Position numbers and translations under genes: made by a program. From the IMG/VR virus record IMGVR_UViG_3300005607_000048, positions 1 through 27,992 of that record: a stretch of DNA of 27,992 nucleotides. The stretch is one strand, 5' to 3'. Shown here one piece after another: positions 8,764-27,992 of the stretch. Numbering within the stretch: the stretch's first letter is position 1; each line of letters opens with the position of its first letter. The notes beneath the pieces are model-generated. The model was not told the origin of the DNA and did not search any database. It worked only from the letters and a program-made list of their open reading frames with translations. This DNA comes from a virus.

Positions 8764-8952
8764 ATGAAGAAACATTACCCTCATGGGCCCTGCGCCCCAG
8801 CTTGGCAAGAGCGTCTTCTTAGGGAGACAGACACTGATGAGTTCTGTTATACCCAGGGTTTGCTTGACGAACGACTCGAATTCGACGATGATCGTAAGAT
8901 CGTCATGACAGTGAAGCAATTGAAAGAGTTGCTCAAACGAAGCAAACGGTGA
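8764..8952 (+). CDS. Small acidic/basic orphan
   Basis: A 62-residue protein from ATG 8764 (an ATG at 8755 in the same frame would overlap the -10 box). It begins with a His/Pro/Cys stretch (KKHYPHGPCAPAW) and ends in a helix with a basic tail (VKQLKELLKRSKR). Codon choice is more AT-rich than in the flanking genes (GAA, AAA, GAT), marking the beginning of the atypical 8.75-10.97 kb segment. It is followed by a hairpin. No family is recognised. Confidence 0.55.
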   Translation: MKKHYPHGPCAPAWQERLLRETDTDEFCYTQGLLDERLEFDDDRKIVMTVKQLKELLKRSKR

Positions 8953-8980
8953 AGCTGGCGAGTGATTAGCTTGCCAGCTT
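8952..8980. terminator. Hairpin between convergent genes
   Basis: An 11-bp stem with one G-U pair (8952-8962 with 8970-8980) and a 7-base loop, lying exactly between the stop codons of the convergent genes ending at 8952 (+) and 8986 (-). There is no T-run on the + side and only a short one on the - side, so a bidirectional terminator is likely but not certain. Confidence 0.5.
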
Positions 8981-8985
8981 CGGGT

Positions 8986-9726
8986 TCACTGAAACCAAAC
9001 GAGTGTCAATTGCCCAGACCCACCGTTGCCACCCGGGTACGTTCCTGCCCCCGAGGCACCACCGCCTCCTGCACCCGTGTTCGCTGCTGCAGACTGTCCA
9101 GCGCTGCCAGCGCCCGTTCCGGTGCCACCATTGCCGCCGTTGCCGTAGGGGCCGGCGCCACCGCCACCACCTGGGTTTTTGCCCGATTGAACGACGCCTG
9201 GGGCGCCGCCCTGGAAGACGTTGTGAAGGTTCGCGCTGCCGGACGAAGCCGTGTAGATCTGTCCCTGACCGAGACCACCATAACCCGGACCCGCAACCGC
9301 GACAAGGCCCGTGATTGCATCACTTGCACCCGCGGCGCCGTTATGTCCGCCTCCATCGCCACCGTCACCACCCGCCGCACCGATGAACGACGAGAGAAGG
9401 GTGCTGCTACTGATAGAGAACGTTGTGGAGCCACCCGCACCACCGATCTCTTGACCACCCATCGAAGGAGAGTCAGTCGGAGCGATGCCACCTGCGCCGA
9501 TACCAATCCAGTATGTGGTACCAGACGTGACGCTGACGATAGCATCCATCAGGATGGAACCGCCGCCTCCACCTGCGCCGCCCCCAGCTCCTGCTCCACC
9601 TCCACCGCAACCCTCAAGGAATACAGGACCGGTGATCGGAGCAACCCAAGCTTGACTTCCCGTTGCGACAAGCGTCTGCATGCCAATGGACGCCGACGTG
9701 AATGAAATGCTCGTAATGACTGTCAT
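8986..9726 (-). CDS. Glycine-rich tail adhesin / receptor-binding protein
   Basis: A 246-residue protein on the - strand. The first 45 residues are strand-rich (SISFTSASIGMQTLVATGSQAWVAP), then the chain becomes very glycine-rich, with repeated GGGG, GAGG and GGNGG motifs, and closes with GQLTLVWFQ. This is the layout of glycine-rich phage adhesins, such as those at T4-type tail-fibre tips, in which polyglycine-II helices pack side by side and present loops for receptor binding. The start ATG at 9726 has GGGAG 8 bases upstream. It is one of only three genes on this strand and is divergently paired with the methyltransferase, 28 bases away. Host-range function is inferred from composition. Confidence 0.72.
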   Translation of the reverse strand: MTVITSISFTSASIGMQTLVATGSQAWVAPITGPVFLEGCGGGGAGAGGGAGGGGGSILMDAIVSVTSGTTYWIGIGAGGIAPTDSPSMGGQEIGGAGGSTTFSISSSTLLSSFIGAAGGDGGDGGGHNGAAGASDAITGLVAVAGPGYGGLGQGQIYTASSGSANLHNVFQGGAPGVVQSGKNPGGGGGAGPYGNGGNGGTGTGAGSAGQSAAANTGAGGGGASGAGTYPGGNGGSGQLTLVWFQ

Positions 9727-9749
9727 TTGATGATCTCCCGGGGTAGATT
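9721..9749 (+). promoter_or_regulatory. Promoter before the methyltransferase
   Basis: TGTCAT at 9721-9726, 17 bases, TAGATT at 9744-9749, 5 bases to ATG 9755. It overlaps the start codon of the divergent adhesin gene, so the two starts may compete. Confidence 0.5.
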
Positions 9750-9754
9750 TAGGC

Positions 9755-10369
9755 ATGGGATCAAGCAAATACGCAGTGATTGACGAAATTTTGGGGACTG
9801 GCACAGACTTGTCACAAGTCTGTTGCGTCGAGATCGGATCAGAACGAGGTGAGGGCAGCACTGCCTGGCTTCACACTTGGTGCGTTCAACACGGCATGGA
9901 GTTTTGGACTTGTGACTTCGATCCTGCGATCGCTGATAACGCACGTACTTTGACGCCCAACGTCATATGTGCAAAGGGTGAGGAGTGGCTCACCAAATCA
10001 CCTCCCCAGAAGCCCGTCGCTTTCGCCTACCTCGACAACTTCGACTGGATCTTTCCCAAGAACGTCAGCAAGCCCTGGCGCCTCCAGACGGGTCGTTACC
10101 TCGAGATCGATGGCACTGTCATGAACAACGTTAATTCGCAAGCAACTCATTTCGCTCAAGCCAACGCACTGCTCCCGTTGTTCGCACCCCATGCTTTCGT
10201 CTTGTTCGATGACACTTGGCGTTATGATACGGGCGAGTACGACGGCAAGGGCGGGACCGCGGTACCTTTTTTGCTTGCTAATGGGTTTTCAATCATTAGC
10301 GAGAAGGTCACACCCGAAATTGGCACTCGTGACATCTTTGACGGGTGGGTGCTGCTCCGACGGGGGTAA
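9755..10369 (+). CDS. Class I SAM-dependent methyltransferase-like protein
   Basis: A 204-residue protein. VCCVEIGSERGEGSTAWLH at about residues 22-40 is motif I (ExGxxxGxS) of a Rossmann methyltransferase. FWTCDFDPAIADNARTL gives the acidic residue that would bind the SAM ribose. VAFAYLDNFDWI and FVLFDDTW match later strands with Asp pairs typical of the Methyltransf_24 family. The substrate is unknown; in phages such enzymes modify sugars, small molecules or DNA. It stands alone between two minus-strand genes in an AT-richer segment. The 3' end overlaps the end of the homing endonuclease gene by about 80 bases in convergent orientation. Confidence 0.65.
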   Translation: MGSSKYAVIDEILGTGTDLSQVCCVEIGSERGEGSTAWLHTWCVQHGMEFWTCDFDPAIADNARTLTPNVICAKGEEWLTKSPPQKPVAFAYLDNFDWIFPKNVSKPWRLQTGRYLEIDGTVMNNVNSQATHFAQANALLPLFAPHAFVLFDDTWRYDTGEYDGKGGTAVPFLLANGFSIISEKVTPEIGTRDIFDGWVLLRRG

Positions 10370-10969
10370 TCGTGGACAACGGTAACGCTTATGTCCTGTT
10401 TCATGACACAACGAACAACGTTGCGACTTGCCACGTAATGTCTGACGACGTTTGATTTTCGTCGCTTCAGACTGTTTGAGACCGGTCAAACTCTTTGCGA
10501 TCTTTGCACGCCAAGCTTCTGGTTTGGGTGACGTTGCGGCCGAATGAGGTGGGTGTCCAAGCAACGTCTTCGAAATCTTGGCTCTCACTTCAGCACGTTT
10601 AGCGGGGTTGACATCGCCCACCTTGCCCAACGTGCAACCATACCCGCCGCTGCCACCCAATGTGAAGTTGCAGCCAATGTCGTTCGGATCATCGTGCGAG
10701 TGATTGGTTGAAAACGTCTTCTCACCTGCGATTGTTTTGACTTCCCACTCATTGGAAGCATCAAAACTAACGGGACCTACACAAACTTCGATCCGAACAC
10801 CGTAGCGTTCGACGATTGCTTTGTGTTTGTGGTTTCGGTTCTTCAGGTCAGATGCTCGTCGTAAGAGCCCACGACCAACGTAAAAGCAACGAGGGGTTTC
10901 CTCTAGCGTCCAGTGCTTGTACCCGTAGAACCGCTCTGGTGTCGGCTGCACGACCATACTTAGTGGCAT
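10289..10969 (-). CDS. GIY-YIG homing endonuclease with NUMOD-like and zinc-knuckle C-terminus
   Basis: A 226-residue protein on the - strand (a start at 10957 is also possible). Residues 15-34 (YGYKHWTLEETPRCFYVGRG) correspond to the GIY-YIG core, with CFYVG standing for the YIG half. R38 and the Glu of NEWEVKTIA are the likely catalytic Arg and Glu. The middle carries two copies of a short motif (AKISKTLLGHPP and AKIAKSLTGLKQS) like the NUMOD3 DNA-binding modules. CSLCHETGHKRYRC is a CCHC zinc knuckle. These features define phage homing endonucleases, which cut phage DNA to spread themselves. The gene lies antisense between the methyltransferase and the endolysin, and its start overlaps the endolysin start codon. 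Confidence 0.82.
   Translation of the reverse strand: MPLSMVVQPTPERFYGYKHWTLEETPRCFYVGRGLLRRASDLKNRNHKHKAIVERYGVRIEVCVGPVSFDASNEWEVKTIAGEKTFSTNHSHDDPNDIGCNFTLGGSGGYGCTLGKVGDVNPAKRAEVRAKISKTLLGHPPHSAATSPKPEAWRAKIAKSLTGLKQSEATKIKRRQTLRGKSQRCSLCHETGHKRYRCPRLPPSEQHPPVKDVTSANFGCDLLAND
10957..10962 (+). promoter_or_regulatory. -10-like box TACTTA before the endolysin
   Basis: TACTTA ends 5 bases before ATG 10968, in the same arrangement as at 3751. No -35 is visible at 16-18 bases. The box lies inside the first codons of the opposing homing endonuclease gene. Confidence 0.4.
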
Positions 10970-15511: not shown

Positions 15512-15846
15512 GCAACGCTGCAAAGATTCTGAAGGATGCCAGGGTCAAACCACCACGAGCACCACGCGCCAAGAAAGTCAAGGCTGACCTCGGCAACTTG
15601 CCCCTCGCGGTCGAAGATGGGAAGCTCAGGGTCAAGCTCGACGGGAAGATCATCTTCCAGCGGACGTTGGACGGCAAGACCAAGCTCCACGAGGGGTTGG
15701 TCAAGAGCGCGCCCGATGACAAGGGGATCATCACCGTCTGGGACGACACCAGGAAGCAGTGGTACGCCTTCGACCTGAAACAGGCCGACCACGTCAGAAC
15801 TGCCTCAGTCAGCGAGCTGGCGGAATCACCCGCTCGTGCACCATGA
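15508..15846 (+). CDS. Basic orphan downstream of the glycosylase
   Basis: A 112-residue protein starting at GTG 15508 within the previous stop (GTGA), with GGGAGG about 4-9 bases upstream. The first 30 residues are Lys/Arg/Pro-rich (ARVKPPRAPRAKKVKAD). A strand-rich domain follows, with regular beta hairpins (LAVEDGKLRVKLDGKIIFQRTLDGKT, GIITVWDDTRKQWYAFDL). Its position suggests cotranslation with the glycosylase, and its charge suggests nucleic-acid contact. No family recognised. The 3' end overlaps the convergent protease gene by 38 bases. Confidence 0.65.
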   Translation: MSNAAKILKDARVKPPRAPRAKKVKADLGNLPLAVEDGKLRVKLDGKIIFQRTLDGKTKLHEGLVKSAPDDKGIITVWDDTRKQWYAFDLKQADHVRTASVSELAESPARAP

Positions 15847-16693
15847 AGGCACGGATGCTGTCGGCCGGGATCAGGTAACCGGTGTTGGGGACCTGGCGAC
15901 TGATAGCGTCTGCCGTGCCGACGAGGTTTCCGTCAGCATCGAAGGCTCCACCGCCTGAGTTGCCGAACCAGATCGGGGCCGTCACCTGGATGACGGGGTA
16001 GACGTGGCCGTTGTGATCATCGAACTCGGGGCGTTGGGCTGACACGTACCCGTGGACGTATGTCCACCACATGCCAGCGGGGTGACCGACGACGTTGATC
16101 TCTTCGCCGTCATGGACGGCACCTGTTCGGAGCGGCGCGTAGGGGTGGCTGCCCGGTTCGCTGGCAATCACCAACGCGATGTCGTTGTCCCAGTTGACTG
16201 CTTTGACGACGGCGGTGTGGTATGTTTCATGCTTCGTGGTGATGTCGCCACGCAACGAGTAGTACAACGTCTGGCCTACAGGGTTCCAGCGCTGGTCCTC
16301 CTTCGTCGGGTCCTGTCCGTTGTGCAGCATCTGCAGGAGTTTGAGCAGCTTCGACGCTGGATCTTCGGGGTCAACGGGATCTGCTTTGGGCTTGCCAATG
16401 TCATCGACGCAGTGCGCCGCAGTCAACATCACGTCGTTGCTGACCCACACCGCTGAGCAGTACGCGCCGAGGATGATCTTGGCGTCTTCTGGGATCTCGT
16501 CAGGGGTGTCGTAGTGGACGGGCTTGTCATCGTCCTTGCGTTCCTTGTCGTACCAGCGGACCAGAGCGGGCGTCTCCTGTTCGAGCTGCTGGACCAACGC
16601 TACTTGTGACGCAGGGATCACAGCAGAAGTCTTCGACCAGACACAGCAGGCCGGCAAGAGTACAGCACCAGCCCACAGCAAGATCCGCCGCAT
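15809..16693 (-). CDS. Secreted trypsin-like serine protease, possible lipoprotein
   Basis: A 294-residue protein on the - strand. Residues 1-17 (MRRILLWAGAVLLPACC) are a signal peptide with a lipobox-like LPAC at 13-16, so the protein may be lipid-anchored at Cys16. The chymotrypsin-fold triad is present in order: H94 in TAAHC, D171 in DNDIALV and S246 in GNSGGG. The length is that of a single catalytic domain with no PDZ domain. Extracytoplasmic location suggests action on host envelope proteins, on competing phage receptors or on defence factors; this is inference. The start has AGAGGTG 4 bases upstream. Exported proteases of this type are rare in phages, and the gene is against the transcription direction of its neighbours. 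Confidence 0.85.
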   Translation of the reverse strand: MRRILLWAGAVLLPACCVWSKTSAVIPASQVALVQQLEQETPALVRWYDKERKDDDKPVHYDTPDEIPEDAKIILGAYCSAVWVSNDVMLTAAHCVDDIGKPKADPVDPEDPASKLLKLLQMLHNGQDPTKEDQRWNPVGQTLYYSLRGDITTKHETYHTAVVKAVNWDNDIALVIASEPGSHPYAPLRTGAVHDGEEINVVGHPAGMWWTYVHGYVSAQRPEFDDHNGHVYPVIQVTAPIWFGNSGGGAFDADGNLVGTADAISRQVPNTGYLIPADSIRAFMVHERVIPPAR

Positions 16694-16772: not shown

Positions 16773-17642
16773 ATGCCCGAAGGACCCGAAGTCAGGCGCA
16801 GCGCGGATTACCTCAGCAAGTTGCTGGTCGGAAAACATCTGCGTTCGGTGGGAGTCAACAGGAACCACGGCGGGAGCAACGGCGGGCGTTACGCCAACAG
16901 AGATCCTGAAGGGATGGCTGAGCTCAATGCCTGCCTCACTGGAACGCAGGGCCTGCGCATCCATGCCGTGGATTGCAAGGGCAAGTTCATGTACTGGTCG
17001 ATCGGGGACGGGTGGTGGGTCTGGTGCACCTACGGGATGAGTGGGCAGTGGACCACCCAGAAGCCTGACAAGCACACGGCGTTGACCCTGTGGGTCGATG
17101 ACGGCAACCGCTACGGCACCGGCTTGTTGGCGCTCAACTTCCGGGACCCACGGCACTTCGGGACGGTCAAGTTCGTCTATGATCCCGGCGATGTCCTGAC
17201 CAAGAAGAAGCTGGCATCACTCGGACCGGACATGCTGAAGAATCCGCCCAACGAGTTGGAGTTTCAGCTCCGGCTGTCCCGTCGAGCGAACAAGACGATC
17301 GCTGAAGCTTTGATGGACCAGAGCGTCGTGTCAGGCGTCGGCAACTACGTCAAAGCTGAAGCCCTGTACTTGGCTGAGATCTCTCCACACCGGCTAGTTA
17401 GCTCGCTCACTCCCAACGAGAAGAAACAACTCCGCCAGCAGATCATCAATGTGATGGGAGCAAGCTACAACTCGGGTGGAGCAACCATCAGCACCTACCG
17501 CAACGTTGATGGTTCGAAAGGTGGGGCCCAGAGGCGCTTTGCGGTGTATGGTAATCCTACGGACCCGATGGGCAACCCGGTCGTGAAGGAAGAGACCAAG
17601 GACGGTCGTACCACTCACTGGGTGCCTGCGATCCAGCACTGA
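16773..17642 (+). CDS. Fpg/Nei-family DNA glycosylase-lyase with zincless finger
   Basis: A 289-residue protein. It begins MPEGPEV, giving the N-terminal Pro2 nucleophile and Glu3 of the family. K71 in the KGKFMYW strand corresponds to the conserved lysine of the N-terminal domain. The helix-two-turn-helix is at DQSVVSGVGNYVKAEAL, followed by AEISPHR. The C-terminal segment GDGRTTHW-type (KDGRTTHWVPAIQH) aligns with the usual zinc finger, but all four Cys are missing, so it should form a zincless finger as in NEIL1 and some viral and plant relatives. The conserved Arg of the finger is kept. Substrates are oxidised bases such as 8-oxoG or hydantoins. An insertion at about residues 28-55 is extra relative to bacterial Fpg. 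Confidence 0.9.
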   Translation: MPEGPEVRRSADYLSKLLVGKHLRSVGVNRNHGGSNGGRYANRDPEGMAELNACLTGTQGLRIHAVDCKGKFMYWSIGDGWWVWCTYGMSGQWTTQKPDKHTALTLWVDDGNRYGTGLLALNFRDPRHFGTVKFVYDPGDVLTKKKLASLGPDMLKNPPNELEFQLRLSRRANKTIAEALMDQSVVSGVGNYVKAEALYLAEISPHRLVSSLTPNEKKQLRQQIINVMGASYNSGGATISTYRNVDGSKGGAQRRFAVYGNPTDPMGNPVVKEETKDGRTTHWVPAIQH

Positions 17643-20910: not shown

Positions 20911-21206
20911 AAGGCAACGGAGAGTTCTCGATCGGGGGCCAGGTGTGGCCGGGGACCAGCAAGCTCGTCGAAGAGTTGGGCGAGCTGGGACAAGTGCTGG
21001 GCAAGCTGATCGGCTCCCACGGAGAGACTGACCACTACGACGGCAGCGACCTTCGCCAACGCATGGTCGAGGAGATCGGAGACGTGCAAGGCGCCATCCT
21101 CTTCTTCCTCGAGCACAACATGACCGAAGCCGAGAAGGATCGGGTCGCCGAGCGGGCACACAAGAAGTTCGAGCTCTTCGAGAAGTGGCACCGAGAGGGC
21201 AAGTGA
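20907..21206 (+). CDS. MazG-like nucleoside triphosphate pyrophosphohydrolase
   Basis: A 99-residue protein. SKLVEELGELGQVLGKLI has the EExxE metal-binding helix and MVEEIGDVQGAILFFLE the matching ExxD helix, giving the all-alpha MazG fold at the usual single-domain length. The C-terminus (RVAERAHKKFELFEKWH) fits the closing helices of the family. Members cleave NTPs or dNTPs to NMP and PPi, clearing aberrant nucleotides or altering ppGpp-related signalling. Phage MazG proteins are common. The start is ATG 20907, with GGAGG 5 bases upstream, rather than the GTG at 20901. Confidence 0.85.
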   Translation: MKGNGEFSIGGQVWPGTSKLVEELGELGQVLGKLIGSHGETDHYDGSDLRQRMVEEIGDVQGAILFFLEHNMTEAEKDRVAERAHKKFELFEKWHREGK

Positions 21207-21538
21207 AGCAGTGCGCCGACATCCGCTCCGGGAAGAGCAAGATCAGCGGGCGAGGCTTGTTCGCCCGTGTCATGCTGAGGCCCGGCATCCCATTCAACGA
21301 TGACCCGGCACGGAAGCACGGCTTCAACCACTCGTGCCAGCCCAACTGCATCATCGTCAGGAACGACAAGGGCGGTGTCTGGTTCGTCATCCCGCTGCGG
21401 ATCATCCTGCCGGGCGAGGAGCTGACGCTCGACTATCGCAACGGGCACAAGCCCCGCAAACATGGGAGGTGGCTGATGTCACGTCCACCGCGCGACTGCC
21501 GGCCGTGTCGCTGTCCGTCGTGCATGGAGAAGCGATGA
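21203..21538 (+). CDS. Compact SET-domain protein (putative protein-lysine methyltransferase)
   Basis: A 111-residue protein starting at GTG 21203, with GAGAGGG upstream. It has the SET motifs in order: SGRGLFA at 15-21 (SAM-binding GxG), NHSCQPNC at 42-49 (the NHSCxPN pseudoknot motif) and GEELTLDY at 71-78. The C-terminal Cys cluster C99/C102/C104/C107 occupies the place of a post-SET zinc site. It is somewhat shorter than cellular SET domains because the insert between the first two motifs is only about 20 residues. SET enzymes methylate lysines of histones, ribosomal or other proteins. A phage copy could modify a host protein or a virion protein. It is cotranslated with the downstream ADP-ribosylglycohydrolase. 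Confidence 0.85.
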   Translation: MKQCADIRSGKSKISGRGLFARVMLRPGIPFNDDPARKHGFNHSCQPNCIIVRNDKGGVWFVIPLRIILPGEELTLDYRNGHKPRKHGRWLMSRPPRDCRPCRCPSCMEKR

Positions 21539-22446
21539 AACACCGTAACGACAACATGCTGCTTCGCATCGCACAGGGCGATGCCTACGCTGCGGCGATC
21601 GAGTACGTCAAGCCCAAGGAGCAACCGGAGCTCTACGAGGGCATCCGCAGGTTCGAACGGTACCTGCAGCACCCGACCCACACCAAGCTCCGGCCGGGCA
21701 TGTACACCGACGACACCCAGATGTCGATCGCGCTGACTGAGCTCCTGCTGGCCAAGGGCCGGGCAGCGAAGCACGAGGACTTCGTCGAGGCGTGGTTCCA
21801 TGCTTTCAAGCGGGACCCCCGCGACGGGTACAGCCGCAACTTCCAGTCGATCCTCGAGTCGGTCAAGACCAGCGACGAGCTCCGGCTGACGCTCAGGCCC
21901 GACTCGACCAAGAACGGGGCGGCGATGCGGAGCGTGCCCCTCGGCGTCATCCCCGACCCCGAGTGGGTCAAGACGATGGCGATGCGCCAAGCAGGCACCA
22001 CCCACGCAACCTACGAGGGTGTGACGTCGGCAGTGGCAGTCGCCCTGATGTCGCACTATGCCCTCTACGACCGTCGAGACTTCTCCAGCATGCCCAGCTG
22101 GTTGGCAAACCAGATGCCGGTCTTTGAGCGTTTCCGTGAGCCCTGGGTGGGCCCGGTCACTGGCAAAGCCCAAGGCTCGCCCTATGACGTGGGCATGAAC
22201 ACTGCGTGGGCAGTGCATACCTTGCTGACGACCCAGACGAGCCTGATGGGCATCATGCGACAGGTCATCGACTGGGGCGGGGACACCGACAGCGTCGCCG
22301 CCATCGCATGGGGGATTGCATCGGCTCGTTTCCACGACGAGCTTCCAGAGTTCCTCGAGCGAGACCTCGAGGCGCAAGGCAACCTGAAGTACGGACCCGA
22401 GTTCCTCAAAGAGCTCGGCAAACGTTTGATGGAGACACCGATATGA
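21535..22446 (+). CDS. ADP-ribosylglycohydrolase (DraG/ARH family)
   Basis: A 303-residue protein with the family signatures. GMYTDDTQMSIAL at about residue 59 supplies the metal-binding TDDT cluster. GTTHATYEG matches the THxxxxG segment. WGGDTDSVAAIAWGI near residue 245 is the second Asp-rich metal site. The length is standard. The enzyme removes ADP-ribose from proteins (DraG from nitrogenase reductase; others from Arg, Ser or DNA adducts) using two Mg/Mn ions. In a phage it may undo ADP-ribosylation imposed by host defence toxins or reverse that made by a phage enzyme; no ART is seen here. It overlaps its neighbours by ATGA on both sides. Confidence 0.9.
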   Translation: MKHRNDNMLLRIAQGDAYAAAIEYVKPKEQPELYEGIRRFERYLQHPTHTKLRPGMYTDDTQMSIALTELLLAKGRAAKHEDFVEAWFHAFKRDPRDGYSRNFQSILESVKTSDELRLTLRPDSTKNGAAMRSVPLGVIPDPEWVKTMAMRQAGTTHATYEGVTSAVAVALMSHYALYDRRDFSSMPSWLANQMPVFERFREPWVGPVTGKAQGSPYDVGMNTAWAVHTLLTTQTSLMGIMRQVIDWGGDTDSVAAIAWGIASARFHDELPEFLERDLEAQGNLKYGPEFLKELGKRLMETPI

Positions 22447-23053: not shown

Positions 23054-23386
23054 ATGGCAATCATCAACATCAAGGGACTCGACAAGGCGGAACTCCTCGC
23101 GGAGTTTTACAACGCTTCACAGCCGATGGGCATGGGCTTCCTGCAGGCTCGTTCTGGGGTCATGACCCGTGAAGACGCGCTCAAGATCATGGAAGCGGGC
23201 GACGATTCGTCTCGCATGTTCCCGGGGATGCGTGGACCGCGTCTCTATTTCGATTACGTCTACGGACGACCCCTCAAGATCGACTTGAGCCGGGACGAGA
23301 TGGAGACCAGGCTGTTCGACCGTGACAACGGTGAAGGCCGCGGCGAGCGTTGCATCGAAGCGGTGAGAGCACGTTCAGCCGGATGA
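23054..23386 (+). CDS. Small conserved-type orphan
   Basis: A 110-residue protein. It opens with a strand and helix (IINIKGLDKAELLAEFYNASQPMG), then GFLQARSGVMTREDALKIMEAG, then RLYFDYVYGRPLKIDLSRDEMETRLFDRDNGEG. The last part, YFDYVxGRxLKIDLS...LYDRDNG, reminds me of a family of short conserved bacterial and phage proteins without known function. No catalytic motif is visible. Three bases separate it from the TANGO2 gene. Confidence 0.7.
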   Translation: MAIINIKGLDKAELLAEFYNASQPMGMGFLQARSGVMTREDALKIMEAGDDSSRMFPGMRGPRLYFDYVYGRPLKIDLSRDEMETRLFDRDNGEGRGERCIEAVRARSAG

Positions 23387-23389
23387 GCT

Positions 23390-23896
23390 GTGTGCACGCT
23401 CATCATCCTCAACGAGGTGACGCCAGGTTACCCGCTGATCGTCGCGGCCAATCGTGACGAGCAGTACGACCGTCGGTCGTCGCCGCCGGTGATCCGAGAG
23501 CTGCCGGGCCTGTCCCTCATCTGTCCGACCGATGAGGTGAGGGGCGGGACCTGGATCGGCGTCACCGACTGTGGGTGGTTCGTCGGCATCACCAACCAGG
23601 ACGACGGGAAGCACGACGACAACAAGCTGTCTCGTGGCCAGCTGGTGAGGCGCCTGTTGACGTCCCCGACGCACACCGAGGCCGCCGCGGTGTTGGCCCA
23701 CGTTGACCCCTCTCAGTACAACCCGTTCAACCTTGTCTTCGGTCGTCCCGGAGCGATGTTCTTGAGCCGCGTCCTCCCCGGCAAGCCCATCGAGATGGAG
23801 CCGCTCCCAACAGGAGTCAGTGCAGTCAGCAACGACTGTTGGGGAGACAGGTACGTTGAGAAGACGGGGTGGCCCGGGCCATGGCTTGGAGCCTGA
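23390..23896 (+). CDS. TANGO2/NRDE-family protein, N-terminal part (frame-split gene)
   Basis: A 168-residue product from GTG 23390. Cys2 is the expected N-terminal nucleophile once Met is removed, and NRDE at 21-24 in LIVAANRDEQYDR is the family name motif. GGTWIGVTDCGWFVGITN and the later VSNDCWGDRYVEK also fit the family. The frame ends at 23896 in the middle of the expected fold. The missing C-terminal half lies in the -1 frame from 23869. The family belongs to the Ntn-hydrolase-like proteins; the eukaryotic member is linked to haem and lipid handling, while bacterial activity is not settled. Whether this is a programmed frameshift, a split gene or a one-base error near the GGGG at 23866-23869 cannot be decided. 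Confidence 0.8.
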   Translation: MCTLIILNEVTPGYPLIVAANRDEQYDRRSSPPVIRELPGLSLICPTDEVRGGTWIGVTDCGWFVGITNQDDGKHDDNKLSRGQLVRRLLTSPTHTEAAAVLAHVDPSQYNPFNLVFGRPGAMFLSRVLPGKPIEMEPLPTGVSAVSNDCWGDRYVEKTGWPGPWLGA

Positions 23897-24168
23897 CGGA
23901 CGAACCCACCATCACCGACATCGTACAGGTTCGGTCGCGCCTGATGACGACGTTGGCTTCCCACTTCTCCCACCGTCAGGCGAAAGACGATCCGTTCCAG
24001 GCAGTGTGCGTCCATGCCGACGAACACTGCTTCGGCACTGTCAGCTCCTCCCTCATCACCGTGTCCAATCAAGGACTTGTGGAGTACTGGTACAAGGACG
24101 GGCCAGCGTGTCAGCACAACCCGCTGACTCTCGTTGGTCGCATGGCTCGCCAGGAAACACATGAGTGA
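23869..24168 (+). CDS. TANGO2/NRDE-family protein, C-terminal part (-1 frame)
   Basis: A 99-residue frame from GTG 23869 or ATG 23881. FQAVCVHADEHCFGTVSSSLITVSNQGLVEYWYKDGPA matches, in segments, the C-terminal half of TANGO2-family proteins, where CVHG..YGT.SSS is conserved. It overlaps the upstream part by 28 bases and continues its fold without a gap if one base is added in the GGGG run at 23866-23869. No ribosome site precedes GTG 23869. It ends ATGAGTGA with the next start. Read as an independent protein it would lack the catalytic Cys and NRDE motif. Confidence 0.75.
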   Translation: MARAMAWSLTDEPTITDIVQVRSRLMTTLASHFSHRQAKDDPFQAVCVHADEHCFGTVSSSLITVSNQGLVEYWYKDGPACQHNPLTLVGRMARQETHE

Positions 24169-26804: not shown

Positions 26805-26810
26805 CCGGGC

Positions 26811-27992
<1,182 letters not shown>

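Follow-up and report, generated by a model that had tools for sequence, protein, structure and literature searches.

The window analysed here is the whole of the 27,992-base virus record IMGVR_UViG_3300005607_000048, and it holds a TANGO2/NRDE gene that is interrupted as recorded. The N-terminal frame lies on the plus strand at 23390-23896, starts with GTG, closes with a TGA at 23894-23896 and encodes 168 residues beginning MCTLIILNEVTPGYPLIVAANRDE, with Cys2 and the NRDE motif near the N terminus, both of which are invariant in 44 of 44 aligned homologues. The family assignment made in the original prediction is borne out by the Pfam TANGO2 profile PF05742, which this frame matches at 81.9 bits against a gathering score of 22.6 (E = 1.1e-22), but only along positions 1-158 of the 257 in the profile. 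The gene had also been described as split by a one-base frame break, and its C-terminal remainder was indeed found in the -1 frame of the same strand. This frame follows a stop at 23857-23859, runs open from 23860 to 24168 and begins DPFQAVCVHADEHCFGTVSSS; its first GTG is at 23869 and its first ATG at 23881, and it carries the FGTVSSS region, which represents the C-terminal (Y/F)GT strand region. As recorded, the window encodes a 168-residue fragment in which the frame is lost after about residue 161-164, and not a single chain of about 240-280 residues extending through the (Y/F)GT region. Judged from its sequence, the recorded gene is an interrupted member of the TANGO2/NRDE family. The C half alone stayed below the Pfam, PHROGs and NCBIfam thresholds, which fits its lower conservation. 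It is not a chance ORF, since it aligns with the C-terminal end of the TANGO2 protein of a related phage at 74% identity (E = 6e-45; 75% in a further comparison).

Elsewhere in the window, a SET-domain protein (21185-21538) precedes an ADP-ribosylglycohydrolase (21334-22446), and the two are possible host-takeover genes. A trypsin-like protease on the minus strand (15809-16693) adjoins an Fpg/MutM-type DNA glycosylase on the opposite strand (16773-17642), and a phage-encoded Cpn60/TCP-1 family chaperonin (26808-27992; PF00118, E = 5e-35) runs off the end of the window. About 2 kb of the window (8950-10900) has no counterpart in the related phage; this stretch holds a glycine-rich protein (8989-9861, minus strand), a methyltransferase-like ORF (9755-10366) and an ORF with a zinc-finger-like C terminus (10292-10969, minus strand).

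Intact homologues and the site of the missing base

The N half, the C half, the relative's protein and an alignment were each used to scan 2.9 million viral contigs. Every scan led to a single phage contig, IMGVR_UViG_3300005529_000001, of 369,475 bases, and to no further viral homologue. Its TANGO2 gene (L002, 5001-5774) starts with ATG and is a single uninterrupted frame of 257 codons, whose product matches PF05742 at 84.9 bits along positions 1-250 of the profile's 257 and, over its own residues 1-160, is 69% identical to the first half of the window gene. The two genes are alike in their neighbourhood, in Cys2, in NRDE and in the C-terminal FGT.SSS motif, but the window copy is frame-broken. 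The gene order common to both is ADP-ribosylglycohydrolase, zinc-ribbon protein, TANGO2, a small ORF and an AAA ATPase, and a 110-residue ORF just before TANGO2 in the window (23054-23386) is missing from that place in the relative. Comparison with related phages had been proposed as a check on the frame break, and the relative's gene answers it with one frame and no shift at the site. A search for a second record of the window virus, by an exact 21-mer over the site, an indel-tolerant gapped flank pattern and a conserved 31-mer, again found only the relative. The second half of the gene contains a 35-base stretch that is identical in the two phages; this was not regarded as striking, since it ranks only about fifth in length among such matches in the synteny block.

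Bacterial homologues give the same picture. The frame is open across the break position in all 80 of them, and 79 are complete single frames of 241-350 residues, the 80th (183 codons) being cut by the end of its own contig. The relative's intact protein was modelled with AlphaFold2 using 43 homologues (mean pLDDT 91.9), and in this model the break position lies inside helix 157-171. According to the model, the fragment would be without helix 178-189 and strands 215-225, 231-237 and 247-252, which are the final helix and the final three strands.

The pairwise DNA alignment of the window and the relative places one single-base gap across the break, and the only other gap inside the gene is an in-frame gap of six bases near its end. 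It had been suggested that one extra G in the GGGG at 23866-23869 would restore the frame. This position was not upheld: at the protein level a breakpoint scan scored 222 when the first frame was kept through Trp161, against 208 at the GGGG. At the nucleotide level 23879-23881 was the best place for the gap, and much of 23872-23882 did almost as well. Because the breakpoint scores beat those at the GGGG, the missing base is best placed in or adjoining the CCCGGGCC run at 23873-23881 on the plus strand, as judged from the pairwise alignment and the breakpoint scan, and not in the GGGG.

Interpretations of the frame break

We consider it highly likely that this is an ordinary single-chain TANGO2/NRDE gene, carried by a large phage and lacking one base in this one record. 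One base would have been lost near 23873-23881, putting the frame out after about residue 161-164, and the loss would reflect either a consensus or assembly error of the contig or a mutation that arose very recently in the phage population. Recent inactivation and sequence error were both among the options first raised, and they are the best supported, since the gene of the closest relative is whole and the site does not look like one of programmed frameshifting. We infer that the break is non-functional and recent. The second half, compared with the relative over 89 codons, gave omega = 0.155, and setting omega to 0.5 lowered the log-likelihood by 5.9 units, setting it to 1 by 14.6; the estimate for the N half was saturated (t = 5.7) and was left out. 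This codon comparison indicates that the second half is still under purifying selection and that it was translated in its own frame over most of the period after the two phages diverged; any real break would therefore be recent.

Between the two forms of this explanation we lean, on general grounds, somewhat towards an error. When the window was compared by tblastn, both ways, with the 34.5-kb syntenic stretch of the relative, TANGO2 was the only gene whose match changed frame in about 28 kb of synteny. On our reading of the match list, the other flagged frame changes are repeats, alternative-frame matches or a stretch before the start of a small gene. A lone base lost from a GC-rich run within 28 kb is as compatible with a single recent mutation as with an isolated consensus error. 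A genuine inactivating deletion in the phage population, which would make the gene a recent pseudogene, is a real but somewhat less probable form of the same explanation. Accessory genes of large phages are often dispensable, and the absence of any other frame break in the 28-kb contig means that the contig is not generally error-ridden. Against this, the gene bears no other lesion and constraint on its second half persists, which leaves room only for a very recent loss.

The original prediction also raised programmed frameshifting and a natural two-subunit protein. Both are unlikely, since the relative and the bacterial homologues have an unbroken gene, the site has neither a slippery heptamer nor a notable RNA structure, and the break falls in the middle of a helix. 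A programmed -1 frameshift, by which some ribosomes would slip in the overlap at 23860-23893 to make the full protein while the rest made the 168-residue form, is very improbable. The two frames do overlap, the -1 frame is open and constrained, and the G_GGG at 23866-23869 permits a one-tRNA slip, the sole slip in the overlap with full P-site re-pairing. However, none of the 12 in-register heptamers of the overlap has XXX and YYY together as in the canonical X_XXY_YYZ, CCCGGG occurring there only out of register, and a slip on the GGGG would replace the shared Trp161. The formal motif test covered the canonical heptamer; looser motif classes beyond it are named in a paper on phage frameshift prediction (PMC10885494). 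In addition, the RNA around and downstream of the site folds no better than its shuffles in a pseudoknot-free model (z = 0.72 and 0.47). A frame change conserved among relatives was not found either, as the sole phage relative found reads straight through the site.

With this relative no closer than about 70-75% identity, and the search for a second record of the window virus having found none, lineage-specific use of a shift is still conceivable, in the form of a single-tRNA slip of low efficiency on the G_GGG at 23866-23869. Such a non-canonical shift would yield a little full-length TANGO2 beside the truncated form, and it is likewise very improbable. Least likely is a natural two-subunit protein, its second half translated separately, from ATG 23881 or GTG 23869, by termination-reinitiation and assembling with the first, since the split falls mid-helix in the predicted structure and all 79 complete homologues as well as the syntenic relative are single chains, even though ATG 23881 lies 13 bases before the stop codon of the first frame. 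The second part had been said to lack a ribosome site. This holds for GTG 23869, which has none to speak of, but not entirely for ATG 23881, which is preceded by a weak-to-moderate SD-like sequence, GGGGUGG; its energy is -6.6 kcal/mol, compared with -3.3 at the start of the gene itself and a median of -3.0 for random positions.

TANGO2 in phages and comparison with known homologues

With an ordinary gene that is one base short as the preferred reading, the significance of the break is small beyond annotation: the gene call of this record should be treated as interrupted or mis-sequenced. Of more use is the incidental finding of a TANGO2/NRDE protein encoded in a lineage of large phages (window 23390-24168; L002 5001-5774); the protein belongs to a family whose function, heme or acyl-CoA binding, is disputed. 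Among 50,697 annotated phage records there was no convincing phage TANGO2 homologue, only three weak matches of 30-33% identity. One of these, in the 219-kb CAKLQH020000005.1 labelled 'Acinetobacter phage MD-2021a', was rejected as a phage homologue, its surroundings looking like bacterial chromosome; thyA, folA, lgt and PhoX lie around its NRDE gene. Another, from an unannotated 'UNVERIFIED' record, was set aside, as were plasmid matches of about 29% identity to host-like NRDE genes.

HtpA of Shewanella oneidensis is a bacterial TANGO2 homologue reported to act in heme trafficking (PMC10470608), while TANGO2 has been reported as an acyl-CoA binding protein in an NRDE-dependent manner (PMC11867700) and its heme role has been challenged (PMC12782551). 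Going by family only, the intact phage protein would be a soluble protein of the Ntn-hydrolase fold, from a family reported, with dispute, to bind heme or acyl-CoA, and it may have a role in host metabolism.

In Foldseek the PDB entries that matched the relative's model best were human TANGO2 (8sv7, 9bwa; TM about 0.8); Ntn hydrolases, among them isopenicillin N acyltransferase and bile salt hydrolases, came next. Human TANGO2 thus has the same fold as the relative's intact protein, and both it and HtpA share Cys2 and NRDE with the window copy, which differs from them in being phage-encoded and cut by a one-base loss. The homologues of the giant viruses Fadolivirus (A0A7D3UQA9) and Satyrvirus (A0A3G5AH65), both from BFVD, are likewise virus-encoded and have the TANGO2 fold, but they belong to viruses of eukaryotes, are about 20% identical and have a predicted chain that is unbroken.
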